The notes beneath the pieces were generated by a model. The model was not told where the DNA came from. It was given only the letters and a program-made list of their open reading frames with translations, and did not search any database. From Flavihumibacter cheonanensis (GTDB taxonomy: Bacteria; Bacteroidota; Bacteroidia; Chitinophagales; Chitinophagaceae), in assembly GCF_022352215.1 (NCBI RefSeq), contig NZ_JAKRWF010000001.1, positions 1,116,001 through 1,180,000 on the forward strand: a stretch of DNA of 64,000 nt. Reading direction: 5' to 3'. The position numbers and the translations under genes were made by a program. This document shows positions 59,760 through 60,684 of the stretch, piece after piece (positions within the stretch are counted from its first letter, which is position 1; each line of letters begins with the position of its first letter).

Positions 59760-60038
59760 TTACCCCTCTTTTGGCTTCCTATACTTCCCAGGCCCGGATC
59801 TGTGCTCAGGTGGTGTATACCCATACCTGGTTTTATAACGATTCCGGTTCCATTCCTGCCAGTCTTCCCATTTGGTGGATACCATCACACAGTTAAATCC
59901 AGTAAGCCCCGGATCAGCCATCCTTGCCTTACCCAGAAAGTAAACAAAGGCATCGTCCACATTCTTGATATGGAATTCCTTAAAGCCTTTGACCAGCTTT
60001 CCGGCTTCAGAATGATATGATATGAAATACCAGGGCAT
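59760..60038 (-). CDS. Small hypothetical protein, 92 residues
   Basis: Basic soluble protein without signal peptide: PWYFISYHSEAGKLVKGFKEFHI at the start, then VDDAFVYFLGKARMADPGLTG, VMVSTKWEDWQEWNRNRYKTRYGYTPPEHRSGPGKYRKPKEG. Rich in W, Y and K, with a Lys-rich tail. I do not recognise the family. Its upstream region (60039-60178) holds the 11-base repeat array that separates it from the exported RidA gene on the same strand, so that array could be part of its promoter or of the RidA 3' region. Confidence 0.6.
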   Translation of the reverse strand: MPWYFISYHSEAGKLVKGFKEFHIKNVDDAFVYFLGKARMADPGLTGFNCVMVSTKWEDWQEWNRNRYKTRYGYTPPEHRSGPGKYRKPKEG

Positions 60039-60093
60039 GATTAAAATGCTAAATTACTTAGTATTTTTCAATAAATGCCCAAATTAATTCCTT

Positions 60094-60174
60094 ACCTCAT
60101 CCTAACCTTTTTCCTACCTAATTGTTACCTTTTTCTTACCTCATAGAAACCTCATGGAAACCTCGTCCTTACCT
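60094..60174. repeat. Array of eight 11-bp units with invariant ACCT (AGGT on the minus strand)
   Basis: ACCT occurs at 60094, 60105, 60116, 60127, 60138, 60149, 60160 and 60171, exactly 11 bases apart. On the minus strand the units fit AGGTAAGGATG; AGGT and the A at position 9 are invariant in all eight, other positions vary. The array starts 4 bases beyond the exported RidA stop and ends 56 bases before the 92-residue gene start. Eleven is not a multiple of three, so it is not coding. Spacing of one per helical turn would suit cooperative binding of a regulator. Confidence 0.85.
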
Positions 60175-60178
60175 TTGC

Positions 60179-60628
60179 CTAATTTTTTGGCATATGAGCA
60201 ATTAATTCCACTTCCAACTTTGCTTCCGCCATATATAACCGGGAAACCTGTACCCAGGTGGCTGCTGGAAAATCGTTTTTGTAAAAAGATTTTCTTGCAA
60301 AATTGAATTTCTTCATTGCTTCAATATCGGTGGTATATAAATTCTCCTTCACCACGTGCTGAAAGCTTGCACCAAAACTATTCAGGGAACGTTCCAATGC
60401 CTTGTAAACATTTGTGATTCCTTCCGGTGTAACTTCTAAAGCCACTGCACCTGATATATATAATACATTTTCCACTTTTACTACCTGAACGTAACCGGCA
60501 GCTGTGTCCTGCTTAAGCGGATTATCCCAATGCCATTTTTCTTTATTTATGTCCCTGGTTTGCGCAAGTAAGAAGGAAGATTGAGATAACATCAACATCA
60601 GCGCGAATAATAATTTATTATTTATCAT
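60179..60628 (-). CDS. Exported RidA-family protein (YjgF/UK114)
   Basis: 149-residue RidA-superfamily protein carrying an N-terminal signal peptide (NNKLLFALMLMLSQSSFLLAQ), so unlike typical RidA it is exported. The core is present: VKVENVLYISGAVAL, GITNVYKALERSLNSFGASFQHVVKENLYTTDIEAM, and the C-terminal KLEVELIAHMPKN. In active RidA deaminases an Arg stands before the conserved S/x-C/W-V-x-V strand; here the segment is AATWVQVSRL, lacking it, so enamine deaminase activity is doubtful. I start at the ATG at 60628, with the signal peptide. It is divergent from a DoxX-like membrane protein, with a 9-bp inverted repeat between. Confidence 0.85.
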   Translation of the reverse strand: MINNKLLFALMLMLSQSSFLLAQTRDINKEKWHWDNPLKQDTAAGYVQVVKVENVLYISGAVALEVTPEGITNVYKALERSLNSFGASFQHVVKENLYTTDIEAMKKFNFARKSFYKNDFPAATWVQVSRLYMAEAKLEVELIAHMPKN

Positions 60629-60662
60629 GATGAGAATAGTTTTTAAAATGGTCACAGCAAAT

Positions 60663-60684
60663 TTAATTACCAAAGGGTAATTAA
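60663..60684. promoter_or_regulatory. Perfect 9-bp inverted repeat (operator candidate) between RidA and DoxX-like genes
   Basis: Arms TTAATTACC and GGTAATTAA around AAAG. It lies 35 bases before the exported RidA start and 41 bases before the divergent DoxX-like gene, where one dimeric repressor could control both. Its core TTACC-N4-GGTAA is the same as the repeat at 53770-53783. Confidence 0.6.

Follow-up and report, generated by a model that had tools for sequence, protein, structure and literature searches.

An array of eight 11-bp units, lying between two genes of Flavihumibacter cheonanensis in a stretch of 64,000 nucleotides (the window, by which we mean the whole stretch of DNA analysed), is probably a multi-site operator of the LytTR type, a member of a family of arrays dispersed over the genome and bound in trans by a stand-alone LytTR-domain protein encoded on contig C175; to this reading, drawn from sequence comparison, we give a probability of about 0.57. 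The eight units would act as half-sites with the consensus ACCTCATNSWW, spaced by one helical turn and so all presented on the same face of the DNA. The cognate protein would most likely be the one encoded beside the C175 array, acting on the other arrays in trans; its monomers would bind neighbouring half-sites cooperatively, each of them weakly, so that occupancy would switch over a narrow range of protein, and the resulting nucleoprotein strip would control, with either sign, the adjoining promoter, which in the window is probably that of a 92-residue gene. With the LytTR reading, a repeat that had no explanation becomes a pair of protein and DNA open to direct test.

The array and its surroundings comprise the following features, in window coordinates.

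60094 to 60181, minus strand: 11-bp array of eight units, read as AGGT on this strand, which also carries the two neighbouring genes
60094 to 60181, read on the plus strand: the units in order, ACCTCATCCTA, ACCTTTTTCCT, ACCTAATTGTT, ACCTTTTTCTT, ACCTCATAGAA, ACCTCATGGAA, ACCTCGTCCTT, ACCTTTGCCTA
60138 to 60170, plus strand: three-unit block ACCTCATAGAA-ACCTCATGGAA-ACCTCGTCCTT, of which the same or nearly the same units stand in the same order at L051 and L054 and, in genome G005, at L033 and L040
60171 to 60181, plus strand: last unit, overlapping the stop codon of the RidA-family gene (60179-60181)
60179 to 60673, minus strand: RidA-family gene (Pfam PF01042, Endoribonuclease L-PSP), ending inside the last array unit; start codon provisional
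59760 to 60038, minus strand: 92-residue gene, downstream of the array, candidate target
60080 to 60087, minus strand: TTAATTTG, a weak -7-box-like match (5/6 to TANNTTTG) just beyond the array on the side of the 92-residue gene

ACCT recurs in the window at exact 11-bp steps (60094, 60105, 60116, 60127, 60138, 60149, 60160 and 60171), and a T stands five bases ahead of every one of the eight copies; in both respects the preliminary description was accurate, and its claim that the run exceeds chance is borne out, since the longest run in 40 mononucleotide shuffles of the window is 3 or 4. Among 4-mers of at least three different letters, ACCT is the only one in the window with a run of at least 4 at spacings of 5-40, besides its own 22-bp double, and Tandem Repeats Finder reports periods of 11, 11 and 22 at the site. 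The family core CTCAT is found in three of the eight units and CTCGT in one, and four bases lie between the stop codon of the RidA-family gene and the first AGGT. The 92-residue gene has no Pfam match at E 0.01 and no NCBIfam match at E 1. A coding role for the array was considered and rejected on reading the sequence: the AGGT strand cannot stay open because the ATGAGG-type tandem units carry TGA and the period of 11 runs through every frame.

In the genome of the window (G000, 4.84 Mb; the other G numbers are comparison genomes), a pattern search finds AGGT-N7 arrays at no fewer than seven places, and more degenerate arrays would escape the pattern; the reversed-pattern control finds none.

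C110:535343, C110:707485, C110:1176094 (window), C110:1643023, C164:386811, C175:5153 and C197:32602: AGGT-N7 arrays of G000

These arrays stand between divergent genes (L049, L050), convergent genes (L052) and same-strand genes (L053, L054, window) or on the opposite strand (L051), so that the element is not specific to the 92-residue gene. Four exact AGGT units are matched in 7 of 59 genomes of the genus, family and order, namely G000 itself, five others of the genus (other N7 letters are found in G002, G007 and G009) and G028, where the match is a simple GGTGGTG repeat. With a two-unit pattern and one mismatch allowed, the 15 genomes of the genus give 27 matches in G000, 9 in G005 (a genome only 55% complete), 3 in G008, 2 in G004 and a single one in each of G012 and G014; the reversed control gives 4 in all.

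The unit consensus of the family, ACCTCATNSWW, was derived from 61 units of 12 arrays in G000, G004, G005 and G008, some of them orthologous and hence non-independent, with the last unit of each array dropped and a thirteenth array left out. Position 7 is T in 57 of the 61; position 9 is without exception a strong base (34 G, 27 C), and a weak base, A or T, stands at position 10 in 58 units and at position 11 in 59, so that the earlier remark that the other positions drift is only partly true. Retention of base-pair class without orientation is what would be expected of indirect or minor-groove reading. Differences within the N7 are of the complement type (A/T and C/G flips) in 63% of cases, against 38% expected from composition; the excess comes from positions 6, 7 and 9-11, positions 5 and 8 contributing nothing, and is here treated as a constraint on base-pair class rather than a mutation process.

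In this genus the recurrent neighbour of such arrays is a short LytTR gene, and the member of the ACCT family that lies on contig C175 adjoins one.

L053:5350-5700 (G000:C175): stand-alone LytTR gene (PF04397, 59.9 bits), adjoining the C175 array

The profile of the cassette LytTR proteins matches the solved LytTR domains of AgrA and ComE. Some 40 bp downstream of the C175 array begins a DUF6266-like gene, and the cassette further comprises genes for a DUF5675 protein and a small membrane-type protein of 75 aa without relevant Pfam or NCBIfam match. The Flavihumibacter DUF6266-like proteins have no Pfam match and are so named since a profile built from them finds the true DUF6266 protein (PF19781) encoded at L288; an AlphaFold model of moderate confidence (mean pLDDT 77.9) gives weak matches to generic beta-sandwich domains, from which no function follows. 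Against NCBIfam and PHROGs, the DUF5675 protein corresponds to phrog_1501, of unknown function, and the cassette proteins otherwise give weak matches only.

The motif of the window array is nearest to that of the C175 array (similarity 0.85, the next being 0.66). The putative cognate array is itself imperfect, with the exact CTCAT core in only one of its six units (and in three of eight in the window), which counts against the LytTR reading. Relatives of the C175 LytTR protein are found at 78% identity in G014 and 49% in G006, and CTCAT is common to GCCTCATGGTG (G014), the family consensus ACCTCATGGAA (G000) and ACTCATCCTAT (G006). At the homologous gene of G014 (MAKNKNNILVRGFSG), an 11-bp array of other sequence occupies the same place, and the window motif is closer to the unrelated arrays G012_a (0.66) and G013_C1 (0.62) than to the arrays of the C175 orthologs in G006 (0.53) and G014 (0.50), which again speaks against the LytTR reading.

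The association of 11-bp arrays with short LytTR genes was measured in five genomes of the genus (G000, G007, G008, G009 and G014), within a PF04397 scan of six genomes that gave 150 matches. The short set consists of 28 genes with frames below 160 aa (27 in 20 regions, plus the C175 gene), and an array was counted when at least 36 of 66 positions matched at lag 11 within 850 bp of the gene. By this measure an array lies near 13 of the 28 short LytTR genes (two of the 13, at L177, share one array), against 1 of 30 receiver-size LytTR genes, those given loci in the scan, and 6 of 290 sampled segments; 15 of the 28 have none within that distance, a point against the LytTR reading. Four of the 13 loci were known beforehand from their arrays, and with these removed the figure is 9/24 (p = 0.0017 against receiver-size genes, 7e-8 against sampled segments). 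Other lags give 0 to 2 of 28, with the exception of lag 22 (10/28). Among the six array-positive segments, three look by eye like real arrays; L124, L138, L139, L141 and L142, chosen for arrays, had been removed from the sample, and L127 and L135, chosen for other matches, were kept. The six further short-frame relatives of the C175 LytTR protein detected in other genomes at E 1e-8 were all inspected, and have an array in five cases (L195, L205, L213, L231, L232) and none in the sixth (L199), and a short LytTR gene of G005 (C290), outside the 28, has one as well. The sole receiver-size gene of the 30 with an 11-bp array nearby is L160 (G007:C45:135035). At L228:4105 (G005:C290), another 11-bp array, of ATAGGGTTTTT-type units, lies about 3 kb from the short LytTR gene and its own array.

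The motifs of the arrays tend to vary together with the adjoining proteins. When 17 LytTR genes were compared along with their local arrays, whose units were assigned by hand (L177, L180, L183, L187 and L190 left out), protein identity correlated with motif similarity (Mantel r 0.56, with 0 of 20,000 permutations as high): the similarity averages 0.69 among the 10 pairs that share at least 45% identity and 0.38 among the remaining 126. In one pair with 48% identity the motifs are unlike (0.19). Since the set includes orthologous loci, common descent contributes to this correlation, which weakens it as an argument for the LytTR reading.

One pair of orthologous LytTR genes, L173 (G000) and L191 (G008), had no array nearby; on the assumption that arrays go with the cassette's DUF6266-like gene, one was expected further upstream, and an eight-unit array is indeed found about 110 bp upstream of that gene in both genomes. 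The two LytTR proteins share 78% identity, and HRRY/HRSF is one of several places where they differ. The cores in G000 are ACCGTT (5), ATCGTT (2) and ACCGTC (1), and in G008 ACCACT in all eight units; 28 of 40 non-core letters agree in place by hand count, and two of the eight units do not match. A change of core in all units with most spacer letters kept would be hard to obtain by slippage or conversion and fits a protein that reads the core. The trans arrays of G008 and G004 mix ACCACT, ACCGTT and ACCGCT cores, so that only in the G008 cassette has the core been replaced throughout.

Comparison with described LytTR systems is in keeping with the assignment in part. In general, as set out in the consulted part of PMC4847170, a LytTR site consists of a pair of repeats, direct or inverse, each 9-11 nt long and separated by 11-13 nt, and the sites share no consensus. 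In the arrays described here, every second unit is 22 bp away, within the 20-24 bp centre to centre of 9-11 nt repeats, and the array family is linked to a LytTR gene both through its C175 member and through the five-genome association. The closest likeness is to the LRS systems (HdrR/BrsR of Streptococcus mutans and LRS-like operons of Bacteroides), which, as far as the consulted excerpts go, share a LytTR regulator (receiver-less in S. mutans), 9-11 bp direct repeats about two helical turns apart and low conservation of the repeats between systems; the repeat of the S. mutans HdrR operon, ACCTCTTAG (PMC6193735, in excerpt), may be set beside the half-site ACCTCATAG of the present family. Unlike the published arrangement in those excerpts, one pair of 9-bp repeats with an 11-13 bp spacer just upstream of the promoter, the arrays consist of four to nine contiguous units every 11 bp, are dispersed genome-wide and have words of their own in each lineage. 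No LRS-type membrane inhibitor gene was identified; the C175 cassette encodes the 75-aa membrane-type protein named above. The ACC half-sites of published LRS operators are directed towards the promoter (PMC6193735, in excerpt), whereas here they point away from both the 92-residue gene and the DUF6266-like gene of C175. This orientation, together with the promoters, is a further doubt about the LytTR reading, as no promoter boxes were consistently found next to the arrays. The -7-box consensus is TANNTTTG; the weak match TTAATTTG beside the window array is absent upstream of the 92-residue gene in G004 and G008, both of which have no array there. Bacteroides promoter examples with TATCTTTG (PMC6193735, in excerpt) are compatible with that consensus. 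In the open-access literature, at the level of titles and abstract openings, we found no account of contiguous LytTR arrays or of the DUF6266-like/DUF5675 cassette.

The main alternative, possible if rather doubtful, is that the family is a dispersed non-coding repeat of the REP or MITE kind, made of spread copies of an ancestral cassette operator that have no function where they landed, the window copy having been cut when the RidA-family gene came to adjoin it. Several loci share one order of units, ACCTTTTTCTT or similar, ACCTCATAGAA, ACCTCATGGAA, ACCTCATCCTA and then ACGTCAAASGS or similar; in several related arrays this end unit is followed by a common TAAACTTATCATG-like flank, and a subset has a common TAAACTTATC-type flank beside the ACGTCAAASGS end. 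Judged by their letters, the dispersed copies have a common ancestor and did not arise by local slippage, because the order of units is common to different loci; conserved order being common descent, the likeness of the arrays need not mean selection. The shared order and flank, as well as the mixed gene context, are what a dispersed repeat would show, and the window copy lacks the end unit and the flank that are both present in its G005 ortholog, L033. The same alternative would accommodate the one short ACCT-family array of G004 and the two of G008, genomes 99% complete, which lack a close ortholog of the C175 LytTR gene (best matches 36%, in 236-aa frames) and so count against the LytTR reading; decay after loss of the LytTR gene is possible.

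Against this stands the retention of positions across species. The ppk/rpmB interval carries an array, with differing unit numbers, in 4 of the 14 genomes read (G000, G004, G005 and G008), and other sequence in the remainder. The 92-residue gene, found at eight loci of which five were read, has the array in G000 and G005, none in G004 and G008, and in G014 an 11-nt array of another sequence, ACATGGATWAS. Other letters have changed while the ACCT core and the pattern of S and W positions stayed intact, and inspection by eye turned up neither a transposase nor a clean terminal inverted repeat nor a target duplication. The checks foreseen in the preliminary description thus had mixed outcomes: the array is present in relatives and keeps its place in 4 of 14 genomes for ppk/rpmB and in 2 of the 5 loci read for the 92-residue gene, but occurs at other sites too, and units turn over between orthologous arrays, yet position is kept at some loci. 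Where G000 has the ppk/rpmB array, palindromic 11-mers (ACCCGWCGGGT) occupy the place in L081 of G003, in three copies with 3-nt spacers, and similar ones are seen in L083 of G014. A link of one array in G000 (L051) and in G005 with tmRNA was dropped after ARAGORN and Rfam searches: ARAGORN found no tmRNA at five array loci, only a distant tRNA-Phe in L052, and Rfam placed the 3' part of a tmRNA in L040 of G005 only, not in L051.

It is unlikely that the arrays are operators of the same architecture for another DNA-binding protein, either of the OmpR/PhoB type or a small Cox/Xis-like HTH protein, both of which also bind direct repeats about one turn apart. PhoB/OmpR boxes are 11-bp direct repeats with a TGTCA-type consensus; the period is the same, and the consensus is absent from the window units. 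No regulator of this type was noticed in a non-systematic look at the neighbouring genes. Of the earlier suggestion of a multi-site operator with one site per turn and a PhoB/OmpR-type regulator, the operator remains the best-supported class, while the regulator suggested by the neighbours is a stand-alone LytTR protein. Head-to-tail arrays are described for recombination directionality factor (RDF) and BldC sites, and pairs for LytTR sites, in the consulted parts of PMC6193735, PMC4847170, PMC4227749, PMC7498355 and PMC5859096. The RDFs Apl of phage 186, Xis of lambda and Cox of P2 bind tandem repeats one helical turn apart, presumably with one monomer per site, cooperatively and at seven sites at 186 pR-pL (PMC7498355, in excerpt); they belong to another protein family, which serves excision and the control of lysogeny, and no integrase was noticed by eye at the arrays. 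BldC of Streptomyces likewise forms a head-to-tail oligomer on direct repeats of varying number, but is a MerR-like winged-helix protein with 9-bp sites (PMC5859096, in excerpt).

This alternative draws its support from arrays outside the genus. A DUF5675 protein scan of named genomes gave 160 relatives, of which 80 loci were kept; a lag-11 array is found between -1700 and -550 of the DUF5675 gene at 7 of 13 loci of the genus and at 14 of the 67 loci outside it, whereas none of 74 control segments taken downstream has one (p 1.4e-5 for the 14/67). In the 67, lag 21 comes next with 8 (control 4); N was excluded from this lag count, earlier lag matches having been runs of N in L284 and presumably also in L312. 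Near the array at 8 of the 14 non-genus loci opened (one of which, L284, is an N artefact) stands a short opposite-strand gene of 62-67 aa with a PKD-[VI]-type HTH-like sequence; of two such proteins compared with PHROGs, one is Cox-like (phrog_575, E 6e-4) and the other reaches only E 0.27. No gene near the non-genus cassette arrays matched the LytTR profile, a further point against the LytTR reading. Within the genus, the recurrent neighbour is LytTR, its similarity correlates with the motif, and no short HTH gene was noticed by eye beside the arrays in lists of frames of at least 50-60 aa. Arrays upstream of a DUF5675 cassette in several other Bacteroidota genera were seen at L264, L265, L272, L280, L283, L286, L287, L288, L292, L301, L315, L319 and L257.

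Two further explanations offered at the outset are very improbable: an element acting as RNA, either at the 3' end of the RidA-family transcript or in the leader of the 92-residue gene, suggested by the common strand of both genes and AGGT, is disfavoured because other arrays have divergent or convergent genes on their two sides or are on the opposite strand, and no folding signal was found on either strand of the array (z +1.38 and +0.26). A simple decayed tandem repeat (microsatellite) produced by local slippage would account for the differing unit numbers of orthologous arrays, and is refuted as a full explanation by the same ordered units at unrelated loci, besides the empty reversed-pattern control in G000 and the association of arrays with short LytTR genes.

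More broadly, and only tentatively, the LytTR-type operator of the window may belong to a movable operator system, in which a Bacteroidota cassette (DUF6266-like protein, DUF5675 and small membrane protein) would carry its own small regulator and a multi-site operator phased to the helical turn; copies of the operator, of up to about nine units, would spread and wire unrelated genes to the regulator, and regulator and operators would change specificity together, each lineage having its own 11-bp word. In Flavihumibacter that regulator would be a LytTR protein; in Flavobacteriia and others it may be a Cox-like HTH protein. A single genome has arrays at upwards of twelve places, and both families lead back to a cassette that encodes a LytTR protein of its own. 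If the reading is true, they would form a natural series for a regulator and many sites changing specificity together, and for the growth of a regulon by operator copying.

A second family, ACCGTT-N5, is found at nine places in G000 with the pattern ACCRYT-N5 taken three times and one mismatch allowed; one of these is the array of the C186 cassette and another the ACCG array of L050. The same pattern has 33, 35 and 47 matches in G004, G008 and G014 and none in G002, G006, G009, G010 and G011, and its reversed control 14 in all, mostly in G009, G007 and G011. The second-family arrays read in G000, G004 and G008 have 5 to 9 units, often with a marker unit ACCGTCAGTGA. Both families have a member upstream of a DUF6266-like gene in a cassette with a stand-alone LytTR gene. 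By eye, a likeness to the second family is also seen in the array that adjoins the 3' end of L174, the third short LytTR gene of G000, and G009 has two dispersed families that resemble arrays adjacent to stand-alone LytTR genes, AGGTASTAGGA (L184) and GGTTGAACAGA (L181, L182), with further copies where the PF04397 scan lists no LytTR gene.

Further 11-bp arrays were met in sampled stretches, at L126:2993, L135:9952 and L133:6411 of G014 and in L032 of G002, with units GTCAGACAGGT/GTTAGAACGCT in two genomes and AGAGCCGAAAT, and more families therefore probably exist. At L187:2967-3100 (G007), about 400 bp from a LytTR gene, two 11-mers, TTGTATATCGT and TTGTTGTGTCA, alternate with a period of 22 bp, perhaps reflecting binding at alternate turns. 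Arrays that look by eye like inverted pairs round a centre stand beside LytTR or target genes at L180, L190, L213, L231 and L073. A second, short-period kind of array, with tandem units of 7 bp (GTGAGAC, GTGAAAG and similar), some in inverted pairs, is present at L050:15693, L057:9112, L064:2121 and L049:7193 in G000 and at L125, L128, L130, L131 and L133 in G014.
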